Assembly (NCBI GenBank): GCA_003151735.1 | Contig: PLYI01000089.1 | Location: forward strand, 1 to 64,000 | DNA: 64,000 bases | From: Candidatus Bathyarchaeota archaeon | Lineage (GTDB): Archaea; Thermoproteota; Bathyarchaeia; Bathyarchaeales; Bathycorpusculaceae | Direction of reading: 5' to 3' | In this document: one piece after another, positions 24,292 to 34,581 of the stretch | Layout of the letters: every line of letters begins with the position of its first letter | Position numbering within the stretch: position 1 is the stretch's first letter | The notes under the pieces: model-generated | Told to the model about the DNA's origin: nothing | The model's input: the letters and a program-made list of their open reading frames with translations, nothing else | Database searches by the model: none | Translations under genes and position numbers: made by a program

Positions 24292-24309
24292 CCGAAACGC
24301 TTATATTTT
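24292..24309 (+). promoter_or_regulatory. Promoter (BRE + TATA) of the aro operon
   Basis: CCGAAACG (24292-24299) fits a TFB-recognition element and TTATATTTT (24301-24309) a TATA box. Transcription would begin near 24328, leaving about 18 bases before the leader-peptide ATG at 24346. This is one of the clearest promoters in the window. Confidence 0.7.
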
Positions 24310-24345
24310 CTGGGAGACGACTGAATCAACAGGTTCGAAGCAGAA

Positions 24346-24432
24346 ATGTTCAGTTGCAAAAGCAAAAAAGAAGACCGCGCATCACAGTTACTTAGCTTCG
24401 ACTACTACTTTTATTTTCATTATTTTCCTTAA
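24346..24432 (+). CDS. Leader peptide rich in Phe/Tyr (putative attenuator)
   Basis: 28 codons, ATG to TAA. The first half is ordinary (MFSCKSKKEDR), but residues 18-27 read FDYYFYFHYF: eight aromatic residues in ten, then Pro and stop. Nine of 28 codons are Phe or Tyr. It sits between a strong BRE/TATA promoter and the second aspartokinase, the first gene of an operon that ends in chorismate mutase, an aromatic-type aminotransferase and tyrA. An AGGTT lies about 10 bases before the ATG. A six-T run and a 10-bp hairpin follow the stop directly. Ribosome stalling at these codons when Phe/Tyr-tRNA is scarce would report on the operon's end products. Translation itself is not proven. Confidence 0.7.
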   Translation: MFSCKSKKEDRASQLLSFDYYFYFHYFP

Positions 24433-24470
24433 GCCCAGGACTGACGAATTTTTTGGGAAAAGTTCTGGGC
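24433..24470 (+). promoter_or_regulatory. Attenuator-type hairpin and T-run after aro leader peptide
   Basis: GCCCAGGACT (24433-24442) pairs with AGTTCTGGGC (24461-24470): ten pairs, one of them G-U, starting on the first base after the leader stop codon. The 18-base loop contains six T (24449-24454), itself a possible archaeal termination signal. The left arm's GCCCA could alternatively pair with TGGGT (24477-24481), which overlaps the likely ribosome-binding site of the next gene. A ribosome at the leader's end would cover the left arm. Whether control is at termination or at translation start cannot be told from sequence. Confidence 0.6.
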
Positions 24471-24489
24471 AAAGCATGGGTGTACTAAA

Positions 24490-25725
24490 ATGGTAGATAA
24501 CAAAAAAATTGTGGTTAAATTCGGTGGATCCAGCTTAGCTGATCACGAGCGGCTTTTAAAAGCGGTTGTCTCCGTAGTGAATGAAGCTAAAAAAGGCACA
24601 AAAATCGCTGTTGTAGTTTCCGCTATGGGCAAAACAACCGACGTTCTCATGAGTACGGCGAAGAACACTTCGAACGGGAAACTAGAGAAGCATGATTTAG
24701 ACGACATCCTCTCGATGGGTGAACGGACAAGTGTACGCATATTTTCCGCTGCACTAAAAAGCAATGGGGCAAACTCCTGCTACTTCGACCCTATCGACTG
24801 CAACTGGCCCATAATAACCGATGCCGCCTTCCAAAACGCCAACCCACTGCGAAAAGAATGCGAAAAAAACATCAAAGAATGCATCCTGCCAATCGTTGAA
24901 AAAGGCACCATACCCGTAATCGCGGGGTTTCTGGGAAAAACCAAAGAAGGCAAAATCACCACGCTCGGCAGAGGCGGAAGCGACACCACGGCGTTTATTT
25001 TAGCGGAAGCATTAAACGCTGACCAAGTTGTACTTGTAACTGACGCTGACGGCATTATGTCAGGTGACCCGAAAATCATTGCAAACCCCCAGAGGCTCAA
25101 GGAAATCAACGTTAACACACTGGTTGGGCTTGCGGATTCGGGAGCAAAATTTATTCACAGTAAAGCTTTAAAGTACAAACCGAAAAATATCGATGTCAAA
25201 GTCATCAACCATGCAACCGGTGATTTAAGCAAAGAAGGCACCTTAATCACTGGTGGATTAGCTTCGGAGCTCGACGCTGAAATAGCTCATCCCACACCTG
25301 TCGCTGAGATAACGGTTATTGGAACTGGAATTTCAGCAAACCCACAGATCATCACTGAAATGATAGCGAAAGTTAAGGAAAACTCGATGCTTCTTGGCAT
25401 GTCAATGAATACAAATTCAATAATCCTCTACGTTCCCCAAGAAAAAACCATAGAAACCCTCTTCAACCAAATCCACAAAATAACTACTGGCAACAAGGAA
25501 ACCATAGCGATGGCAGTGAAGAAAGATCTGGTGTTCATAAAAACAAGCGGTGTCGGACTTGAAGAAACACATGGCATCATCGGCAGAATCAGTGAGGACC
25601 TAAGAGTTGGTGGCATTAACATTTCAGGCATTTTAACCATTACTTCCAGTATTCTGCTGTTTGTAGATTGGAATGAAAAAGAAAAAGCATTAAAGTTAAT
25701 TAAAAACTCACTTAAAACACATTAA
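24490..25725 (+). CDS. Aspartokinase (aromatic-operon copy)
   Basis: 411 residues. Kinase domain with KFGGSSLAD, SMGERTSVRIF and TTLGRGGSDTTAF, then two ACT domains (about 270-410: EITVIGTGISANPQ; LVFIKTSGVGLEETHG). It is more compact than the threonine-operon copy. It is the first structural gene of the aro operon, 9 bases before aroA'. Known pathway logic: aspartate semialdehyde, two steps after this enzyme, is a substrate of AroA', so a dedicated aspartokinase would secure precursor for aromatic amino acids. Its ACT domains might sense an aromatic amino acid instead of threonine or lysine; this is inference. Aspartate-semialdehyde dehydrogenase is not in the window. Confidence 0.93.
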   Translation: MVDNKKIVVKFGGSSLADHERLLKAVVSVVNEAKKGTKIAVVVSAMGKTTDVLMSTAKNTSNGKLEKHDLDDILSMGERTSVRIFSAALKSNGANSCYFDPIDCNWPIITDAAFQNANPLRKECEKNIKECILPIVEKGTIPVIAGFLGKTKEGKITTLGRGGSDTTAFILAEALNADQVVLVTDADGIMSGDPKIIANPQRLKEINVNTLVGLADSGAKFIHSKALKYKPKNIDVKVINHATGDLSKEGTLITGGLASELDAEIAHPTPVAEITVIGTGISANPQIITEMIAKVKENSMLLGMSMNTNSIILYVPQEKTIETLFNQIHKITTGNKETIAMAVKKDLVFIKTSGVGLEETHGIIGRISEDLRVGGINISGILTITSSILLFVDWNEKEKALKLIKNSLKTH

Positions 25726-25734
25726 GGTGAAAAA

Positions 25735-26523
25735 ATGAACGAAGGAAAAATACGCAGATTAAGAAGAATCATGCAAAAAGACAACCGTACAGTAATCGTG
25801 CCCATGGATCACGGTGTAACGGTGGGTCCCATTCAGGGCATAGCCAACATGCAGCAGATAACTGATAAGCTTCTTAAGGGCAAAGTTGACGCTATCCTTG
25901 TCCACAAGGGCATAGCTAGACACATCGACGTTGGCAACGCAGGCTTAATTGTGATGTTATCAGGCATGTCTAATTTAAGCCCAAACATCAACGCCAAAGT
26001 CCAAGTCTGCAGCGTCCAAGAAGCCATACGCATCGGAGCAGATGCAGTCAGCGTACACGTAAACGTGGGCGCACAAGACGAGGACAGAATGCTTCAGAAC
26101 CTCGGCAAAGTCTCAGATGAATGCGACATCTTAGGTATACCTCTTTTAGCGATGATGTATCCGCGGGGACCAAAAATCCCAAATGAGCAGGCGCCAGATG
26201 TCATTGCGCATGCTGCGAGAATAGGAGCGGAACTTGGCGCAGACATCATCAAAACAAACTATACAGGCAGCATAGACACTTTCAAAGCAGTAGTTGAAAG
26301 CTGCCCCGTTCCAGTAGTCATTGCAGGCGGACCAAAATGCAAGTCCTTAGATGAGGTCCTTCAAACAACCTTTGACTCAATGAAAGCCGGAGCAGCAGGG
26401 CTCTCCATCGGACGAAACGTCTTCCAATGTGACAGCCCAACACAAATAGCGAAAGCGCTATCCGCCATCGTCCACGAAAACGCAACCGTGGAGCAAGCGC
26501 TTAAAATTCTTGGTTCTCGGTGA
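25735..26523 (+). CDS. aroA': 2-amino-3,7-dideoxy-D-threo-hept-6-ulosonate synthase (ADH synthase)
   Basis: First committed enzyme of the archaeal DAHP-independent route to 3-dehydroquinate. It condenses a 6-deoxy-5-ketofructose phosphate with aspartate semialdehyde. 262 residues of the DhnA/class I aldolase barrel: VPMDHGVTVGP near the start, the Schiff-base Lys in ADIIKTNYTGS and a phosphate-binding end (GLSIGRNVFQ). Immediately after the aspartokinase and followed by aroB', the next enzyme, as in methanogens. No DAHP synthase or classical AroB is present in the window. Confidence 0.94.
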   Translation: MNEGKIRRLRRIMQKDNRTVIVPMDHGVTVGPIQGIANMQQITDKLLKGKVDAILVHKGIARHIDVGNAGLIVMLSGMSNLSPNINAKVQVCSVQEAIRIGADAVSVHVNVGAQDEDRMLQNLGKVSDECDILGIPLLAMMYPRGPKIPNEQAPDVIAHAARIGAELGADIIKTNYTGSIDTFKAVVESCPVPVVIAGGPKCKSLDEVLQTTFDSMKAGAAGLSIGRNVFQCDSPTQIAKALSAIVHENATVEQALKILGSR

Positions 26524-26530
26524 AAAAACG

Positions 26531-27550
26531 TTGAAGGAACTCTGGATAGAAGGTAACAAAAAAGAAGCCTCATCAGCAGCGCTTGTTAACCAGTACTTTG
26601 ACGTAATCGTCGATGGTGACACAGCCACTTTTCTGGTTAACAAAGAAACCCAGAACGTCATTTCGCGCAAAAACGAGGACAGCCTCGAAAAAAATAAGAT
26701 ACAAAAAAAAATTTTCCGAATTTGCATCAGCGATAAAGCAACCGAGAACCTGATCGTTAAAGCTGCAGAACTCGGAGCAAGCTACTTAATCATTAGCTGC
26801 GCCAACTGGCGCGTGATTCCTCTGGAAAACTTAATTGCCCGCATTAAGGGCAAAAGCAAACTAATCGCAGAAGTCACTAACGCCGAAGAAGCAAAAATCG
26901 CGCTTGAAACACTCGAACTTGGGACCGACGGTGTTCTGCTAAAAACCTCTGATCCAGATGAAATCCTCAAAACCGTCGCCATCGTTAAGCCCGAAGCCTT
27001 AAAACTTGAAATGGCAACTGCCAAAATTGTAGCCACCAAACCCATCAGCACAGGAGCACGAGTTTGCGTAGACACCTGCGACATGATGAAACAGGGTGAA
27101 GGTATATTGGTTGGAAGCCAAAGCGCAGGGTTATTTTTGGTGGAGGCGGAAGTTAACGAGAACCCGTATGTTGCCTCTCGTCCCTTTAGAGTAAACGCTG
27201 GACCCTTATCGATGTACACTTTGGGCTCACTGCAAAATACCCGTTATCTCTCGGAACTTAAGGCAGGAGACGAAGTCATAATCGTCAATCGCGAGGGAAA
27301 AACACGGAAAGCAAATGTGGGAAGAATAAAAATTGAAATCCGCCCACTTATCCTAGTGGAAGCTGAAGTCGAAGGCAAAACTATAAAGACCATCCTCCAA
27401 AACGCTGAAACCATCCGCCTAGTAACACCAAAAGCCTCCAAACCAGTCACCGAACTGAAACCCAACGACGAAGTCATAGTGCATTTAGCGGCGAAGGGGG
27501 GACGACACTTCGGCATATCTGTGCCTGAAGAAACGGTGATTGAAAAGTGA
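26531..27550 (+). CDS. aroB': 3-dehydroquinate synthase II
   Basis: Oxidatively deaminates and cyclises the ADH-synthase product to 3-dehydroquinate, NAD-dependent. 339 residues from the TTG at 26531 (KELWIEGNKK), which follows GGTGA by 7 bases, the sequence that contains the aroA' stop; a TTG at 26510 would also be in frame. Family features: SAGLFLVEAEVNENPYVASR, RPFRVNAGPLSMY and the C-terminal GRHFGISVPEETVIEK. Its stop overlaps the aroD GTG (GTGA). Confidence 0.95.
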   Translation: MKELWIEGNKKEASSAALVNQYFDVIVDGDTATFLVNKETQNVISRKNEDSLEKNKIQKKIFRICISDKATENLIVKAAELGASYLIISCANWRVIPLENLIARIKGKSKLIAEVTNAEEAKIALETLELGTDGVLLKTSDPDEILKTVAIVKPEALKLEMATAKIVATKPISTGARVCVDTCDMMKQGEGILVGSQSAGLFLVEAEVNENPYVASRPFRVNAGPLSMYTLGSLQNTRYLSELKAGDEVIIVNREGKTRKANVGRIKIEIRPLILVEAEVEGKTIKTILQNAETIRLVTPKASKPVTELKPNDEVIVHLAAKGGRHFGISVPEETVIEK

Positions 27551-28230
27551 CCCCGAGAATCTGCGTTTCGATTCTCCCCAAAAACAACCTTGAAGCGTTA
27601 AGTCTCATTGAAAAAGCAAAGACGGCCCAAGCAGACTTCATTGAAGTAAGGCTCGATTGCCTTGAAATTTCCCGCAAGTTATCCGAACTTTCAGCAAGTA
27701 CAAAAATTCCCCTAATCGCCGCTAACAAACTCCAAAGCGAAAAAGGATACTTCTCGGGAACAGAGGCTGAGTGGCAACAAACAATGTTCCTTGCCGCCCA
27801 GAGCGGTTTTGAATACGTTGACGTTAACTTATCAAGCCCAAAACATAAAGAAACCATCCGCCAACTGAAGCAGTTAGGGGCGAAAACAATCGTTTCCTAC
27901 CACAAATTCGACGGCGCACTCAACGCTTCAGCTATGGAGAAGGTTCTTGATGAGGAAATTGCCAGCGGAGCCAGCGTATGCAAGATTGTGACAACAGCCA
28001 AACAGGTTGAAGATAACCTTCCTGCTTTGAGCTTTGTTTCTTTTGCTTCCAGCAAGGCGAAGCTGGTTTGTTTCTGTATGGGTGAACACGGCAAAATCTC
28101 AAGGCTTCTCTCGCCACAATTCGGGGCATTCTTCACGTTCGCTTCACTTGAACAGGGCAGCGAAACCGCAACTGGGCAGATGAGTATCAGTGAGTTGCGT
28201 GCTGCCTACGGTTTATTGGGGATAAAATAA
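27547..28230 (+). CDS. aroD: 3-dehydroquinate dehydratase, type I
   Basis: Dehydrates 3-dehydroquinate to 3-dehydroshikimate via a Schiff base. 227 residues: FIEVRLDCLE (substrate-binding Glu and Arg), IVSYHKFDG (catalytic His) and VCKIVTTAKQVEDN (Schiff-base Lys). GTG start at 27547 inside the aroB' stop; stop codon shares one base with the aroE ATG (TAATG). Tight packing indicates a single coupled transcript. Confidence 0.95.
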   Translation: MTPRICVSILPKNNLEALSLIEKAKTAQADFIEVRLDCLEISRKLSELSASTKIPLIAANKLQSEKGYFSGTEAEWQQTMFLAAQSGFEYVDVNLSSPKHKETIRQLKQLGAKTIVSYHKFDGALNASAMEKVLDEEIASGASVCKIVTTAKQVEDNLPALSFVSFASSKAKLVCFCMGEHGKISRLLSPQFGAFFTFASLEQGSETATGQMSISELRAAYGLLGIK

Positions 28231-29087
28231 TGGATATCTCAGGAAAAACACGTGTATGCGGAGTCATCGGCGACCCCATAGAACACACCCTTAGCCCCAT
28301 AATGCATAATGCAGCTTTTGGTGCCCTCAAACTTGACTACGCTTTTTTAGCTTTCAAAGTGAAACCTGCGGAACTTGAAAGTGCAGTAAACGGATTGCGA
28401 GCTTTAAACATCCGAGGTTTAAACGTGACCATGCCGCATAAGAGTGCAATCCTAAAATTTTTAGATAGAGTCGATTTATCGGCTCAAATCATAAATTCTG
28501 TCAACACAGTTCTGAATAAGGAAACCAAACTTTTCGGCTTTAACACAGACGGCGTTGGAGCGTTAAAGGCTCTAAGAGAGAACGGTGTGGAGCTGAAGGG
28601 CAGAAAAGTTTTGTTGCTTGGTGCAGGCGGAGCCGCCAGAGGCATAGCTTACGCGATGGCTAAGGAATCTGACGAACTCGCAGTTTTGAACCGCACCTTA
28701 AAACCAGCTCAAGAATTAGCCAGACTGCTGGAGAAGATAGCTAACAAAAAAATTGTTGCAGGTTCGCTCACACTAAAAGAAATCCAGCATAACCTCCAAG
28801 ACTCAGATATCCTAATCAACGCAACATCCGTTGGAATGAAACCTAAAGCTGAAGAAAGCCTCGTAGCGCCTAAACTGTTAAGGCCCGATTTAGCGGTGAT
28901 GGACATAGTTTACAACCCAATCGAAACAAAGCTCGCTAAAGAGGCAAAAGCCGCAGGAGCCAAAGTTGTAAGCGGCGTTGAAATGTTGATTTATCAAGGT
29001 GCAGCCTCATTTGAAATTTGGACGGGGAAATCTGCGCCAGTTGAAGTTATGAGGCAGGCAGCGCTTAATCACTTGATGAAGGTGTAG
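28230..29087 (+). CDS. aroE: Shikimate dehydrogenase
   Basis: NADPH-dependent reduction of 3-dehydroshikimate. 285 residues: N-terminal substrate domain with VIGDPIEHTLSPIMHNAAF and GLNVTMPHKSAIL (catalytic Lys), Rossmann domain with LLGAGGAARGIAYAM, then INATSVGMKP and YNPIETKLAKEAKAAGA. Standard length and motifs. Three bases separate its stop from the aroK ATG. Confidence 0.97.
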   Translation: MDISGKTRVCGVIGDPIEHTLSPIMHNAAFGALKLDYAFLAFKVKPAELESAVNGLRALNIRGLNVTMPHKSAILKFLDRVDLSAQIINSVNTVLNKETKLFGFNTDGVGALKALRENGVELKGRKVLLLGAGGAARGIAYAMAKESDELAVLNRTLKPAQELARLLEKIANKKIVAGSLTLKEIQHNLQDSDILINATSVGMKPKAEESLVAPKLLRPDLAVMDIVYNPIETKLAKEAKAAGAKVVSGVEMLIYQGAASFEIWTGKSAPVEVMRQAALNHLMKV

Positions 29088-29090
29088 ATT

Positions 29091-29960
29091 ATGACAGGTA
29101 AAGCTGTAGCTATTGCTCATGGAGCTGCAACAATCGTGAACGCGATCGCACTGGGTAAAGGTGCAGCGTTTGGGGTTGACTTGTGGACTAGAGCCGAAGT
29201 TAAACTAACCGACGAACCAGACGTTTTAAGAGCAGAGATAGTTTCTGACCCCAAAGAAAGCACGCTTCTCATAGAAAAAACCGTTGCGAGGGTCCTGAAG
29301 AGGTTTGGTTTAGAGAAAAGTTTTGGCGCAAAAATAAAAACGCTATCAAACATCCCTATTGCAAGAGGACTCAAGAGTAGCAGCGTAGCCGCAAACGCAA
29401 CGGCACTCGCAACCACTGCGGCTCTGAGCAAAACTCTTGACGACCTAGAAATAGTAAAGTTGGGTGTTGATGCGGCTTTTGATGCCAAAGTCACAGTTAC
29501 CGGCGCATTTGATGATGCTTGTGCTTCTTATTTTGGCGGCATAGTAATTACCGATAACTCTAAACGGGAAATCATCAAACAGTTTCCCTTGCCTAAGGAT
29601 TTAACAGTGCTGTTTCATGTGCCGCCCCAAAAGGTGTATACCGCTGACTCAAATGTGAACAGGCTCAAAACTCTCAAACCTTTGGTGGAAGTTGCTTTCG
29701 AGAAGGCTTTGGAGGGAAAAGTTTGGGAAGCCCTAACTCTTAACGGGTTAATTTACTCTTCGGCTTCTAGTTTTAACACCAAAATCGCCGTTGACGCGTT
29801 GGCTGCGGGAGCCGTGGCGGCTGGACTTTGCGGCAAAGGCCCTGCTGTTTCCGCAGTGGTCCCGAATGACAAGGTTAATGAGGTGAAAGCTGCCTTGCAA
29901 AAATATGAAGGCGAAATATTACGCGCGCAACTGAATTGTGAGAAAGCTAAGGTGCTCTAA
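29091..29960 (+). CDS. aroK: Shikimate kinase, archaeal GHMP type
   Basis: Phosphorylates shikimate. 289 residues of the GHMP kinase fold rather than the bacterial P-loop AroK: VAIAHGAATIVNAIALGKGA at the start and the ATP loop PIARGLKSSSVAANA (about 90-105), then AFDDACASYFGG and a C-terminal CGKGPAVSAVV. This non-orthologous replacement is typical of archaea. Position between aroE and the EPSP synthase gene supports the call over homoserine or mevalonate kinase. Confidence 0.95.
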   Translation: MTGKAVAIAHGAATIVNAIALGKGAAFGVDLWTRAEVKLTDEPDVLRAEIVSDPKESTLLIEKTVARVLKRFGLEKSFGAKIKTLSNIPIARGLKSSSVAANATALATTAALSKTLDDLEIVKLGVDAAFDAKVTVTGAFDDACASYFGGIVITDNSKREIIKQFPLPKDLTVLFHVPPQKVYTADSNVNRLKTLKPLVEVAFEKALEGKVWEALTLNGLIYSSASSFNTKIAVDALAAGAVAAGLCGKGPAVSAVVPNDKVNEVKAALQKYEGEILRAQLNCEKAKVL

Positions 29961-29962
29961 AC

Positions 29963-31261
29963 ATGGCAGACGTGAAAGTTAAAAAAACTGAAAAGTTGAA
30001 CGGTCAAGTTTGTGCGTCGCCATCCAAGTCTTATACACAAAGAATGGTCATTGCCGCCGCGCTTTCCCATGGAACTTCTGAAGTTTCTAATCCTCTTTTG
30101 TCTGAGGACACGGAAGCTACGCTCCGCGCTGTTACGGCTTTAGGTGCAAAAGTGAAAACAGAGAAAGGTTGCTGGACAATCCACGGCAATTTGCCGCTTA
30201 AAGGGGCAAAACAGCCGATTGATTGTGGTGAATCTGGGGCGACATTGCGATTCATGATTCCCGTAGCCGCTTTGGCAAGCGGTTCTTCAACTTTAGTGTT
30301 TAAGGGTTCAATCAAGAAACGACCCGTGGAACCATTATTAACAAGCCTTAGGGAACTTGGTGCCAAATCACAAGTTGGAAAACTCGGCGACAATGATGCT
30401 GTTTTTGTTGAAGGAGGCGGAATTGTTGGCGGTGAGACCTCCATTCGGGGCGATGTGAGTTCGCAATTTATCTCTGGGTTGATGTTTGCATGTCCAATGG
30501 CCAAAGTGGACTCGGAAATTATGCTTACTTCGACTTTGGAGTCTAAGGATTACGTAAAGATGACTCAGGCAGTTCTGGCTAATCATGGAATTAGGGTACC
30601 TGCACATGAAAATCACCTTCATATCCCAGCAAACCAAACCTATACGCCATCCGACGGAATGGTTCCGGGCGATTTCTCTTCAGCTGCTTTCCTCCTTGCT
30701 GCTGCAGCCATAACCAAATCAAAAGTTCAAATAAACAACCTTAATTATGGCAGCGTTCAAGGAGACAAAGCCATTTTGGACATATTGAAACATATGGGTG
30801 TTGAAGGGAAAGTCTGTGAGGACAGAGTCGAGATAGAATGCTCAGGCAATTTACTCGAACCTATAGAAGTTGATGCCAAAAACATTCCTGACCTTGTCCC
30901 CACCATAGCTGTTCTATCATGTTACGCAAAGGGCACTTCCCACATTTTTGGTGCTCACAGGCTTCGGCTTAAAGAATCTGACCGTCTTGAGTCGCTTTAC
31001 CTTGAGTTAACAAAGATGGGTGCACAAATCAGCATCAACGACGACGGCTTAATCATAGAGGGCGGTTCACCCCTGCATGGCGCAGTCATAGATCCACACA
31101 ATGACCACCGAATTGCGATGGCTTGCGCGGTCGCGGCTCTACGTGCAGAAGGGGAAACCACAATTCAGAACGCTGAGTGCGTTAGAAAGTCTTATCCACA
31201 GTTCTTCACTCATCTAAAACAGGTAGGAGCTAACTTAGTTGGCGGGAAATTCGATAGGTAA
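29963..31261 (+). CDS. aroA: 3-phosphoshikimate 1-carboxyvinyltransferase (EPSP synthase)
   Basis: Transfers enolpyruvyl from PEP to shikimate-3-phosphate. 432 residues: ASPSKSYTQRMVIAAALSHG (phosphate-binding Lys and Ser), DCGESGATLRFMIP, ISGLMFACP and the C-terminal LKESDRLES and DPHNDHRIAMAC blocks. The first motif has Ser-Tyr-Thr-Gln-Arg in place of the usual Ser-x-Thr-x-R. The 3' end overlaps the aroC start by 23 bases. Confidence 0.97.
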   Translation: MADVKVKKTEKLNGQVCASPSKSYTQRMVIAAALSHGTSEVSNPLLSEDTEATLRAVTALGAKVKTEKGCWTIHGNLPLKGAKQPIDCGESGATLRFMIPVAALASGSSTLVFKGSIKKRPVEPLLTSLRELGAKSQVGKLGDNDAVFVEGGGIVGGETSIRGDVSSQFISGLMFACPMAKVDSEIMLTSTLESKDYVKMTQAVLANHGIRVPAHENHLHIPANQTYTPSDGMVPGDFSSAAFLLAAAAITKSKVQINNLNYGSVQGDKAILDILKHMGVEGKVCEDRVEIECSGNLLEPIEVDAKNIPDLVPTIAVLSCYAKGTSHIFGAHRLRLKESDRLESLYLELTKMGAQISINDDGLIIEGGSPLHGAVIDPHNDHRIAMACAVAALRAEGETTIQNAECVRKSYPQFFTHLKQVGANLVGGKFDR

Positions 31262-32342
31262 AGAATTCACAGTAACAACCTTCGGCGAAAGCCACGGCAA
31301 AGTAGTTGGAGTAGTTGTGGATGGTTGTCCAGCTGGCTTGCCGCTTACTGAGGGCGATTTTCAGGAGGAGCTTGACCGCAGGGTTCCAGCGGAACCCAAG
31401 ATTGTTTCTGCACGAGTTGAAAAGGACACTGCCAAGATTCTCAGCGGAGTTTTTAGCGGTTTCACAACGGGTGCTCCAATCGCTTTGATGGTTGAGAACA
31501 AGGAGACCAACTCAAGCGATTACGAAGCCATCAAGAACCTGCCCAGACCAGGGCATTCTGATTACCCCGCCCGCGTCAAGTACGGCGGCTTAAATGACTA
31601 CCGTGGCGGCGGACGCTTCTCTGGCAGAGTCACCGTGGCACTGATAATGGCTGGCACCATAGCCAAGAAACTGCTCAGCAAATTTGACGTTGATGTTCTT
31701 GCATATACCTCAGCAATTGGGCAAATTAACACCACTAAAAAGTTTACTGCAGCGGAAATCCGCAAAAATCGTTACGCAGCAGCAACAAGGTGCCCAGACT
31801 TAGCTTGCGCCGAGAAGATGGAGCAAGCCATAATCAACGCTCGAAAAGTAGGCGACAGTCTTGGCGGAATAATTGAATGCTTAGCCCTAAACATGCCCGT
31901 TGGGGTGGGTGATCCGCTGTTTGATTCGTTGGATGCTGATTTAGCTAAGGCATTGTTTGCTGTTCCCGCGGTAAAGGGCGTGGAGTTCGGCGCAGGCTTT
32001 AGAGCTGCCGAGATGATGGGATCAGAGAACAACGATGCTTTCCTCTTGAAAAACGGCAAGGTTGTGACTTCAACAGAGAATGCAGGCGGCATCTTAGGTG
32101 GCTTAACCAGCGGCATGCCCATCATGATACGTGTCGCGATTAAGCCGACGCCCTCGATTGCGAAGGAACAGAAAACAGTTAATCTATCCTCGATGAAAAA
32201 TGCGGCTTTAAGCGTCAAGGGCAGACACGACCCCTGCGTGGTTCCAAAAGCAGTACCTGCTATCGAAGCCGCAGTCGCCATAACGTTAGCCGACCACATG
32301 ATTCGCTCAGGGTTCATACCGAAAATCTTCAAGGAGCATTAG
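31239..32342 (+). CDS. aroC: Chorismate synthase
   Basis: FMN-dependent elimination that yields chorismate. 367 residues: MAGNSIGKEFTVTTFGESHG at the start (TTG start at 31239, AGGAG a few bases upstream), RPGHSDYPARVKYGG, DYRGGGRFSGRVT and the C-terminal SLKGRHDP-like SVKGRHDPCVVPKAVP. The start overlaps aroA but fits the conserved N-terminus exactly. Two bases separate it from chorismate mutase. Confidence 0.97.
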   Translation: MAGNSIGKEFTVTTFGESHGKVVGVVVDGCPAGLPLTEGDFQEELDRRVPAEPKIVSARVEKDTAKILSGVFSGFTTGAPIALMVENKETNSSDYEAIKNLPRPGHSDYPARVKYGGLNDYRGGGRFSGRVTVALIMAGTIAKKLLSKFDVDVLAYTSAIGQINTTKKFTAAEIRKNRYAAATRCPDLACAEKMEQAIINARKVGDSLGGIIECLALNMPVGVGDPLFDSLDADLAKALFAVPAVKGVEFGAGFRAAEMMGSENNDAFLLKNGKVVTSTENAGGILGGLTSGMPIMIRVAIKPTPSIAKEQKTVNLSSMKNAALSVKGRHDPCVVPKAVPAIEAAVAITLADHMIRSGFIPKIFKEH

Positions 32343-32344
32343 AT

Positions 32345-32605
32345 ATGGACAACATTTCAAAGCTCAGAAAAAAGGTAGATGCAGTCGACGACCAAATCCT
32401 TAAGGCTTTATGTGAAAGAGTCAAAATTTGCAAAGCCATCGGCGATGCCAAGAAAAAGCAGGGCATGCCAATTAGAGATTTGTCTAGGGAAAATGAGGTT
32501 TACAAGCGCATTCAAGAGAAATCAGTACAATTTCAGCTTGATTCAGTTCAAATTGAACGGGTTTACCGCGAAATAGTTAATATGTGCAGTGCTGTTCAAG
32601 AATAA
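32345..32605 (+). CDS. Chorismate mutase (AroQ class)
   Basis: Rearranges chorismate to prephenate. 86-residue all-helical monofunctional enzyme: ISKLRKKVDAVDDQILKALC with the catalytic Arg and Lys pattern, ICKAIGDAKKKQGMPI and RENEVYKRI. It is short, as in other archaea, and not fused to pheA or tyrA; both of those are separate genes here. The frame of the next gene continues after its stop, but no alternative start is visible there. Confidence 0.93.
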   Translation: MDNISKLRKKVDAVDDQILKALCERVKICKAIGDAKKKQGMPIRDLSRENEVYKRIQEKSVQFQLDSVQIERVYREIVNMCSAVQE

Positions 32606-32632
32606 AGAAATCTTGACGGAGCGTCCAAAGCA

Positions 32633-33709
32633 ATGCTCTACGAAATAAACGAGAAAGCCCTCAAACTTGAAAGCGAAGGAAAAAAAATAATCCGCTTAAA
32701 CCTCGGTGACCCAGATTTAGCTACGGCTCCCGAAATAGTGGAAGCTGCCTACTCGGCTATGAAGGCAGGCAAAACCAAGTATTCTTCCTCTTACGGCGAG
32801 AACAACCTGCGGCAGAAACTCGCTGAACGGCACAGCGTAAAAGCAGAGAACGTTGTTATTACTCCTGGTTCGAAATGGGGCATATTCGCCACCATGTTTT
32901 TAATGATGAAGGGCGGAGGCAACGTCATTATTCCTACGCCTTACTGGACAGCTTACGATTTAATAGCAAAAAGCTTAGGTGCCCAAACGAAACTGTTGCG
33001 CACTGAGCTTGAGAACGACTGGAAAGTTGACCTTGCCACGCTTGAGAACATGATTGACAAGGACACACGCATGATTATTCTCAACAACCCAAACAACCCC
33101 ACGAGCAAAATTATGGATGCCAAAACTCTTGACGGCATAGTAGAAATAGCCAACAGAAAAGGCGTCACAATCCTCTCTGATGAGGTTTATGGGACAATAG
33201 CCTTCACCAAAACCAAAAGTATCCTAGAATATAACGGAGGACACAAACACATCCTCACCACCGGCTTCTCCAAAACTTTTAGTATGACCGGATGGCGCAT
33301 CGGTTACATAATAGCCAACAAAATGTTTGTCGACAATATAACTAAACTAAACCAAATCACCATCAACAACGTACCCGTCTTCATACAGGAAGCAGCTTTA
33401 AGAGCGCTCGAAATGCAAAAACAACTCTCCACAAAAATCAAAGAAGAGTATGAGGAACGGGCGAAAATAGCAAGCAAAACCTTAGCTAAAGCAGGTTTCA
33501 AATTCTCAAAGCCTGAAGCTCCATTCTACGTTTTCCCCAAACTCGACGGCCTAGACTCTGAAAAATTCACTTTAGACTTGCTCGACAAAGGCGTTGCAGT
33601 TGCTCCGGGAACAGCGTTTGGCGATTACAGAGAACACTTCAGAATTTCTCTGACAGCTCCAAGCGAAGAAATTAAGGTGGCATTAGACAAAATCAGCGAG
33701 GCTGTTTGA
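32633..33709 (+). CDS. Class I/II PLP aminotransferase, probable aromatic
   Basis: 358 residues, fold-type I: LNLGDPDLATAPEIVEAAY, VITPGSKWGIFATM, NNPNNPTSKI, LSDEVYGTI and the PLP lysine in TTGFSKTFSMTGWRIGY. The N-terminus is about 10-20 residues shorter than most AspC/TyrB relatives, but no upstream start exists and CGGAG lies about 10 bases before the ATG. Location between chorismate mutase and tyrA suggests amination of phenylpyruvate and hydroxyphenylpyruvate, or prephenate. The stop overlaps the tyrA ATG. Confidence 0.9.
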   Translation: MLYEINEKALKLESEGKKIIRLNLGDPDLATAPEIVEAAYSAMKAGKTKYSSSYGENNLRQKLAERHSVKAENVVITPGSKWGIFATMFLMMKGGGNVIIPTPYWTAYDLIAKSLGAQTKLLRTELENDWKVDLATLENMIDKDTRMIILNNPNNPTSKIMDAKTLDGIVEIANRKGVTILSDEVYGTIAFTKTKSILEYNGGHKHILTTGFSKTFSMTGWRIGYIIANKMFVDNITKLNQITINNVPVFIQEAALRALEMQKQLSTKIKEEYEERAKIASKTLAKAGFKFSKPEAPFYVFPKLDGLDSEKFTLDLLDKGVAVAPGTAFGDYREHFRISLTAPSEEIKVALDKISEAV

Positions 33710-34581
33710 TGAGGATTGCCGTAATCGGCGCTGGAAAGATGGGTGTTTGGTTCGCTAAATTTTTTCAGTCTAAAGGCTACGATGTCGTGTTGGCTGATAG
33801 GAAAGAAGAAAAATTAGCTAAACTAAAAGACCTCCATGTTGAATTAACCGCCGATTTCAAGGCAGCAGTCAAAGACGCCGACCAAATCCTTCTTTGTATA
33901 CCCATAAGCGGTGTGGAAGAGGTTGTTAAAGCCATCAGCCCTGCCGTGCATGAAGGACAAGTTGTCATGGATATTTGCTCAATCAAAGAAACCCCAGTCA
34001 AAACCATGCACCAATACATTAAAGGCGCCACGGTTTTGGGAACCCACCCAGTTTTTGGTCCGGGAAGCAACGGCGTAAAACACAAAGCTTACGTCTTAAC
34101 CCCAACCAACCCCAAAGAGACAGCGATTGCAGAACATTACCGAAAGTGGCTGGAGCAGGAGGAAGCGCACGTTTTCATTATGACTCCAAAGAAGCATGAT
34201 GAGCTCATGTCTGTTGTTCTGGGTCTGCCGCATTTTTTGGGTTTAGTTGCCTGCGAAACTCTTCTGGAGCAGAAGAATTTGCCTGAAACAAAAAAAGTCG
34301 CGGGCACCACCTACAGAATGCTGTTCACATTAGCTGAGGCGACTGCGTTGGAAACACCAGAACTCTACGCAAACCTGCAAACAAACCTGCCCGACCTCGG
34401 CAAAATCGAAGACCAATTCATGACAAAAGCCCACGAATGGCTCAAACTGATAAAAAACAAAGATACGAAAGCAATCGTTGAGCGGATGGAGCAACTGAAG
34501 AAGAAGCTGAAGGAAACTGACAGCGACTTCGCCGAATCCTACAAAGTAATGTACAAGATGTTAGAATCCACAGAAAAATAA
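33709..34581 (+). CDS. tyrA: Prephenate dehydrogenase
   Basis: Oxidative decarboxylation of prephenate to 4-hydroxyphenylpyruvate. 290 residues: Rossmann start RIAVIGAGKMGVWFAKFFQS, then DICSIKETPVKTM and GTHPVFGPGS (catalytic His region), and a helical dimerisation half. No chorismate-mutase fusion and no clear ACT domain. ATG at 33709 overlaps the aminotransferase stop (TGATG); a TTG three bases earlier is possible. Last gene of the aro operon. If leader-peptide control exists, tyrA would lie under it, unlike pheA. Confidence 0.93.
   Translation: MRIAVIGAGKMGVWFAKFFQSKGYDVVLADRKEEKLAKLKDLHVELTADFKAAVKDADQILLCIPISGVEEVVKAISPAVHEGQVVMDICSIKETPVKTMHQYIKGATVLGTHPVFGPGSNGVKHKAYVLTPTNPKETAIAEHYRKWLEQEEAHVFIMTPKKHDELMSVVLGLPHFLGLVACETLLEQKNLPETKKVAGTTYRMLFTLAEATALETPELYANLQTNLPDLGKIEDQFMTKAHEWLKLIKNKDTKAIVERMEQLKKKLKETDSDFAESYKVMYKMLESTEK

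Follow-up and report, generated by a model that had tools for sequence, protein, structure and literature searches.

The aro operon of a Candidatus Bathyarchaeota archaeon is preceded by a short leader open reading frame (ORF) that ends in a run of Phe and Tyr codons, and the position of a ribosome on these codons probably controls the operon. We put the probability of this reading at about 0.78—a figure that refers to the core of the claim and not to the step involving the termination factor FttA, which is discussed separately below. The locus lies in a window of 64,000 nucleotides (contig PLYI01000089.1, positions 1 to 64,000 of the forward strand), where the following features were recognized from the sequence:

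24292..24309, + strand: predicted BRE/TATA promoter, CCGAAACGCTTATATTTT
24332..24341, + strand: element 1, GGTTCGAAGC, directly 5' of the leader start codon and nearly or fully invariant in 46 loci of family f1
24346..24432, + strand: leader peptide ORF of 28 codons plus TAA (ATG at 24346-24348, TAA at 24430-24432), encoding MFSCKSKKEDRASQLLSFDYYFYFHYFP followed by the stop
24394..24402, + strand: element 2, AGCTTCGAC (codons S17 F18 D19), the pairing partner of element 1
24397..24426, + strand: stretch of aromatic codons (F D Y Y F Y F H Y F), with synonymous changes enriched in the tail and UAU and UUU preferred
24433..24470, + strand: stop-adjacent hairpin of 10 bp, GCCCAGGACT from 24433, its 5' arm starting at the first base past TAA
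24449..24454, + strand: T6 in the hairpin loop, not universal in relatives
24478..24482, + strand: probable Shine-Dalgarno (SD) sequence GGGTG of the first structural gene; a GGTG- or GGAGG-like motif precedes the assigned start in most listed loci
24490..34581, + strand: 11-gene aro operon, aspartokinase to tyrA, with its first ATG at 24490

The operon encodes, in order, aspartokinase, ADTH synthase, DHQ synthase II, aroD, aroE, an archaeal shikimate kinase, aroA, aroC, chorismate mutase, an aminotransferase and tyrA (with the domains PDH_N/PDH_C), and it represents the archaeal ADTH/DHQ route. The original prediction had described a BRE/TATA promoter, a leader ORF containing FDYYFYFHYF, a hairpin after the stop and six T in its loop, all of which proved correct base for base; its description of the first downstream gene as the start of an 11-gene operon ending in chorismate mutase, aminotransferase and tyrA was likewise confirmed. 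The window peptide ends in FDYYFYFHYFP, and the hairpin that follows (24433-24442 with 24461-24470) had a z of -2.56, with 3 of 200 shuffles equally good. The 193-nt leader folded as a whole gave nothing special (z -0.82, 43 of 200 shuffles equally good), and a comparison of the aro leader with Rfam assigned it to no family, the single weak match having an E of 0.45 and 16.2 bits against a threshold of 60. We also found a conserved helix that the earlier description did not include, in which GGTTCGAAGC (24332-24341) is able to pair over 7 bp with GCTTCGA (24395-24401). In 30 of 31 loci of the genus, the promoter motif CGAAANGCTTATAT, or a close variant of it, occurs at most 80 nt 5' of the leader start, with 38-48 nt from TATA to ATG.

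The locus was found in relatives via aspartokinase, the first gene, at an orthologue cut-off of E<=1e-100. An orthologue was present in 101 of the 256 genomes of the class, and the upstream stretch of all 101 was read. These loci comprised 79 complete leaders with an end of Phe and Tyr codons, two leaders cut by contig ends (L044 and L060, dropped though the aromatic tail is visible) and 20 loci without an aromatic tail (14 in family f10 and six in f15), which were kept apart from the 79. In the leader set, 19 starts, one stop (L074) and two gene starts (L028 and L047) were set by hand from the sequence. The 79 complete leaders span 27 genera and nine families—52 in f1, the family of the window genome, 13 in f6, six in f9, two each in f5 and f12, and one each in f13, f14, f19 and f23—and are related, so that counts of loci do not represent independent events. 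Within the genus, the leader is present in all 31 genomes having the aspartokinase, the 32nd (G012) being without a match to that gene. The 79 leaders are 21-42 codons long, start with ATG (71), TTG (seven) or GTG (one), and lie at a distance of 44-74 nt from the assigned gene start. Outside f1 the nucleotide sequence becomes unrecognisable and the aromatic peptides remain, e.g., FYSFSYFFYN, FFGSFGYFGYRG, FFTYFSGYYTTF, SGYWYFFNY, YYYYYYYCFF and FHYPYFYFFYCYYFFEG, the last being a GC-rich example (L117). Relatives close to the genus include Candidatus Bathycorpusculum and other Bathyarchaeota, and two f6 genomes (G057 and G048) are those of Bathyarchaeum tardum M17C.

Genes of the aro pathway downstream of aspartokinase were also seen in f5, f9, f43 and the odd f1 genera g4 and g32, with ADTH synthase located elsewhere or on the opposite strand in some relatives. 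In G138, G139 and other f9 genomes, a paralogue of ADTH synthase is divergent from aspartokinase, which places the leader between two opposite genes. The operon occurs without an aromatic tail in f10 and f15 (20 of the 101 loci) and also in f18 and f21; most f10 and f15 loci have a different short ORF in its place. In f18 and f21 (L165-L167 and L171-L173), reading by eye revealed other short ORFs before the aro operon, with spaced Phe and Tyr codons (GTTTTC..GTTTAC). Loci of ADTH synthase in 20 genomes without an aspartokinase gene at hand gave a credible aromatic tail in G189 (f13) only; two other matches look like chance. In other classes of the phylum, aromatic ORFs were present in five of seven sampled loci, including VFGFFYGFYFYFYFGP, and missing from two (f38). 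Hairpins at these sampled loci beyond the class were not above shuffles (z -1.91 to 0.87), and the same holds for the hairpin of G189 (z -0.61).

Judged by its pattern of change, the leader appears to behave like translated coding sequence whose tail matters, while its N-terminal residues drift as if neutral. Across the 79 leaders, F, Y and W account for 62% of the last 12 residues vs 7% of the rest. An automatic rule requiring at least six F/Y/W in the last 12 residues recovered an upstream ORF at 74 of 78 orthologous loci and at 0.7% when applied to dinucleotide shuffles of these regions; in control upstream regions from the same genomes, an aromatic-tail ORF was found at 0 of 30 ilvB and 0 of 30 trpE loci. 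(This count and the codon analyses used 78 loci, with L071 omitted on account of its Ns.) The reading frame is kept as well: at all 43 f1 loci parsed, element 2 follows 14-16 codons after the first ATG past element 1 and in the same frame; the test lies in the first ATG being the in-frame one, and distances in multiples of three are by construction. The non-coding spacer from element 1 to this ATG varies in the same 43 loci, measuring 11, 12, 13, 14, 15 or 18 nt; three f1 loci (L011, L013 and L024) fell outside the parsing patterns, and their leaders were found separately. Single-base codon changes, counted from pairs of related loci that are not independent of each other, were 144 non-synonymous vs 48 synonymous in the N-terminal part, as without constraint, vs 419 and 383 in the tail—identifying the tail amino acids as the constrained part. 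Codon choice in the tail (UAU 223 vs UAC 83; UUU 156 vs UUC 113) is opposite to that of 24 genes of the window (UAU:UAC 59:188; UUU:UUC 132:192), a comparison that sets leaders of all families against genes of one genome. A frameshift from the aro leader into aspartokinase was also considered and was rejected for the 78 loci whose gene start is assigned, the frame relation in these being mixed (31, 26 and 21).

An RNA hairpin stands at the end of the leader ORF. The first stem starts 0 nt past the stop in 68 of the 79 loci and within 0-4 nt in 78, and the stop hairpin is better than shuffles (z<-2) in 74, with sequences that are unrelated between families; L039 and L067 showed no significant hairpin. 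In f1, a second helix formed by elements 1 and 2 (helix 1:2) brackets the coding region. Helix 1:2 and the stop hairpin (helix 3:4) together have 94.4% of cells paired in 46 f1 loci, vs at most 48.1% when slid, with covariation above 500 of 500 shuffles; helix 1:2 alone has 91.8% of cells paired in 46 loci, with one double change at a C-G pair (to U-A) and two at the outermost pair. Duplex energy put helix 1:2 above shuffles (p<0.05) in no more than 12 of the 79 loci, with group mean z between -0.36 and -1.34; it was clearest in g30/g36 (CCAATAGCCAC with GTGGCTATTGG) and in f19. RNAalifold returned the stop hairpin alone for g1 and the stop hairpin plus helix 1:2 for the other f1 genera, and elements 1 and 2 differ between families. 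Antiterminator and terminator hairpins that exclude one another had no counterpart here: f1 showed no conserved alternative pairing of the 2:3 type, and a possible alternative noticed by eye in single loci such as L073 is not conserved.

Folding models with a ribosome placed on the leader connect these two parts. Across 77 loci (without L061, which lacks an assigned gene start, and L071, which contains Ns; the SD models below use the same set), hairpin pairing was about 0.86 with the A site at least five codons from the stop, and fell over the final positions up to the stop to 0.75, 0.24, 0.02 and 0. The models thus predict a folded hairpin for most ribosome positions on the aromatic codons, and an open one for a ribosome at the final two codons or the stop. 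Because the hairpin would be opened by a ribosome only on reaching the stop, behind the Phe and Tyr codons, it would report ribosome passage, and we therefore read the arrangement as ribosome-mediated attenuation.

We infer the following course of events in vivo. Ribosomes would translate the short leader ORF; with Phe- or Tyr-tRNA scarce, a ribosome would stall on the aromatic tail, and would otherwise reach the stop codon. The hairpin at the stop would be the read-out, staying folded upon an upstream stall and being opened by a ribosome at the last codons or the stop. A stalled ribosome would cover the U-rich Phe and Tyr codons and exclude the archaeal termination factor FttA/aCPSF1, and quick translation followed by release would expose these codons to the factor. 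The most likely output, to which we give about even odds, would then be whether RNA polymerase goes on into the operon, decided through FttA exclusion. FttA binds U-rich nascent RNA. Its preference is for U-rich stretches at -30 to -36 relative to the RNA end, and PMC11616081, which gives this, also proposes as a hypothesis that FttA and the ribosome exclude each other sterically. Of the 79 loci, 77 have U-rich RNA in this window; this U-richness is due to the Phe and Tyr codons, and hence constitutes no independent evidence. A wider version of the scheme, which we regard as tentative and rather doubtful, would make the Phe and Tyr codons both the sensor and the FttA/aCPSF1 binding site, such that a starved ribosome covers the terminator and the operon is on. 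In the sister families and at trpE, a second ribosome-based sensor would be a +1 frameshift, driven by starvation, at an early NUU-Uxx pair, and jointly the two would form a ribosome-centred control of amino acid synthesis replacing protein repressors in these archaea.

A different output, which we hold to be unlikely, would be translational: a stall on the tail would let the hairpin form and leave the aspartokinase SD open, and a ribosome at the stop would free the 3' arm to mask it. In its favour, the SD is located right past the hairpin, and the last bases of the 3' arm in f5, f9 and g30 are CUCC-like and stand beside GGAGG. Moreover, in 61 of 77 loci the models made the SD cheaper to open for a ribosome 3-5 codons ahead of the stop than for one on it (the difference averaging 1.35 kcal/mol), in a comparison that takes the lowest of three stalled positions and thereby favours this explanation. 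However, with the ribosome at the stop, the 3' arm did not mask the SD clearly more than in shuffles (mean z 0.33, 77 loci), and the f1 3' arm, GUUCUGGGC, is not complementary to the SD. Between the aromatic stretch and the SD and start region, pairing was at the level expected by chance (group mean z -0.21 to 0.52), and masking by the tail was set aside.

Somewhat less probable still is classical intrinsic attenuation, in which the T-run (that of the loop or, in other families, one past the hairpin) would be an intrinsic terminator prevented by stalled ribosomes. Archaeal polymerases can stop at U-runs (PMC8116511), and in several loci of f9, f12, f6 and g30 the hairpin runs straight into a U-run. 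Between stop and gene, a run of at least four T is found in 62 of 79 loci and one of at least five in 39. The 17 loci without a run of at least four, ten of them among the 31 of the window's own genus, nevertheless keep both leader and hairpin, so that a T-run terminator is not the general answer and was rejected as a universal output. Furthermore, the T-run of f1 sits in the loop and not past the hairpin, ahead of the synthesis of the 3' arm, and the hairpin could therefore not act on it; in this position and with these counts, the order of hairpin and then U-run that marks bacterial attenuators is not general among the loci. For the original prediction, which had proposed leader-peptide control of the aro operon with either a change of termination at the T-run or access to the ribosome-binding site as its output, the comparative part stands—aromatic codons, stop position and hairpin are kept while other bases drift. 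Neither of the two outputs gained such support, in view of missing or loop-bound T-runs for the first and, for the second, of tail pairing at chance and a low z for masking by the 3' arm.

We consider it quite improbable that the leader encodes an arrest peptide, i.e., that the nascent peptide, in combination with free Phe or Tyr, arrests the ribosome on the stop codon in the manner of TnaC and Trp, with the open hairpin as the signal. Such a mechanism would agree with a hairpin adjacent to the stop, with the f1 peptide motif SF-x-Y-x-FYY, which is kept, and with the Pro found right before the stop in many leaders of the genus. It does not agree with the tails themselves, where no position is kept across families, F, Y and W interchange, and the stop is preceded by differing residues (P, N, T, R, F, Y and others). 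Finally, a site acting as structured RNA or as DNA (a riboswitch, a protein-binding site or a TTCGAA operator), with the ORF as a by-product of U-rich sequence, would account for the two conserved helices of f1 and for the palindrome TTCGAA within element 1, but is very hard to reconcile with a frame kept in 43 of 43 loci despite a freely varying spacer, with constrained tail amino acids, with the GC-rich leader of L117, with elements 1 and 2 that differ by family, and with the lack of an Rfam match. Attenuation mediated by a ribosome on the aromatic codons remains our preferred reading.

The control loci yielded observations of their own. For trpE, used as a leader control, the sequence suggests that translation requires a +1 shift of frame at a Trp codon (own genome G000:C49:62764-63180, minus strand, L156; further loci L134-L163 and L207-L226). 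In the genus, 28 of 30 trpE loci begin with ATG, three codons, (C/A)UU and UGG, and a +1 shift at NUU-U leads into TrpE; 23 of these 28 have no ATG, GTG or TTG in the TrpE frame past the last in-frame stop. In L154 (G021) and L158 (G030), TrpE is in frame with the ATG, and UGG is lost in L154; these two may be natural escapes from the proposed control. Outside the genus, NUU-UGG occurs in the same register in 19 of 20 sampled loci, nine of which lack an in-frame start, G237 being the one without the pattern. The site resembles the RF2 site CUU UGA C. A review of archaeal recoding (PMC8211752) lists, in its accessible part, a single proven case of -1 shifting and, for +1, no proven cellular one. 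A similar arrangement exists in f10 and most of f15, where the aro operon has no aromatic tail. The aro aspartokinase starts with MGGHLYW or MGGNLYW in 13 of 14 f10 loci and with a similar sequence (MGDHLF, MGGNLF and the like) in four of six f15 loci, the other two not fitting. In f10 and most f15 loci (L108-L112 and L118-L133), CUU-UAC or CUU-UUC is in register for a +1 shift into aspartokinase, with a geometry like that of trpE; a GTG in the aspartokinase frame of f10 and f15 makes an ordinary start possible.

A second candidate leader lies at 42621-42571 of the window (minus strand), where an ORF encoding MRDRHLNSWDRRVPIL and ending in a stop precedes an ilvBN-leu-pheA operon. This element is strongly conserved in nucleotides in all 30 loci of the genus with ilvB, and its ORFs often end in V-L-I-L. 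It contains the helices GAGG/CCUC and CUGGG/CCCAG, but R-to-C changes occur and its ends vary, and a structured RNA may be at work here instead of a peptide. A comparison of the ilv leader with Rfam gave no match. Near the expected ilvB transcript start, at 42664-42641 (minus strand), there is a palindrome, CTGTTCTTT-CTTTTT-AAAGAACAG, which is variable in relatives.

Leader-peptide attenuators of biosynthetic operons are well known from bacteria, with pheL and trpL of E. coli as examples. Like pheL and trpL, the aro leader is a short ORF with codons for the end product before the operon, with its stop beside an RNA structure. Unlike them, it resides in an archaeal host, its hairpin begins at the stop codon itself, f1 has no conserved pair of mutually exclusive antiterminator and terminator structures, and the U-run is not universal. 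With TnaC and the Rho-dependent bacterial leaders it would share a leader ribosome that may shield RNA from a termination factor, but starvation would cause the stalling instead of a ligand-bound arrest peptide, and the factor would be FttA/aCPSF1 and not Rho. In erm-type translational attenuation (ErmBL), the position of the ribosome on the leader alters a downstream hairpin, as modelled here, whereas masking of the SD is not clearly above chance in our case. T-box riboswitches have a comparable target, as they sense uncharged tRNA for amino acid operons; the aro leader, in contrast, matches no Rfam family and has a conserved ORF instead.

In archaea, the known control of aromatic operons is exerted by proteins, according to the accessible text of PMC6737238. 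TrpY of Methanothermobacter and Tar/TK0271 of Thermococcus act on the same pathways in the same domain of life, but are DNA-binding proteins without a leader peptide (PMC6737238, same text). A search confined to open-access literature found no archaeal leader-peptide attenuator, and in the accessible part of a review on archaeal transcription-translation coupling (PMC8116511) the terms attenuation, attenuator and leader peptide do not occur. Recruitment of RNA polymerase was the only known target of archaeal transcription control before work of 2021, as far as the available text of PMC8448881 states.

Bathyarchaeum tardum, a member that bears the leader, is in laboratory culture according to the accessible part of PMC10477458. 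Most crenarchaeal genomes are without TrpY and Tar, and the accessible text of PMC6737238 calls for a third mechanism and states the control of aromatic synthesis in these organisms as an open question. Archaeal transcription control has been described mainly at initiation.
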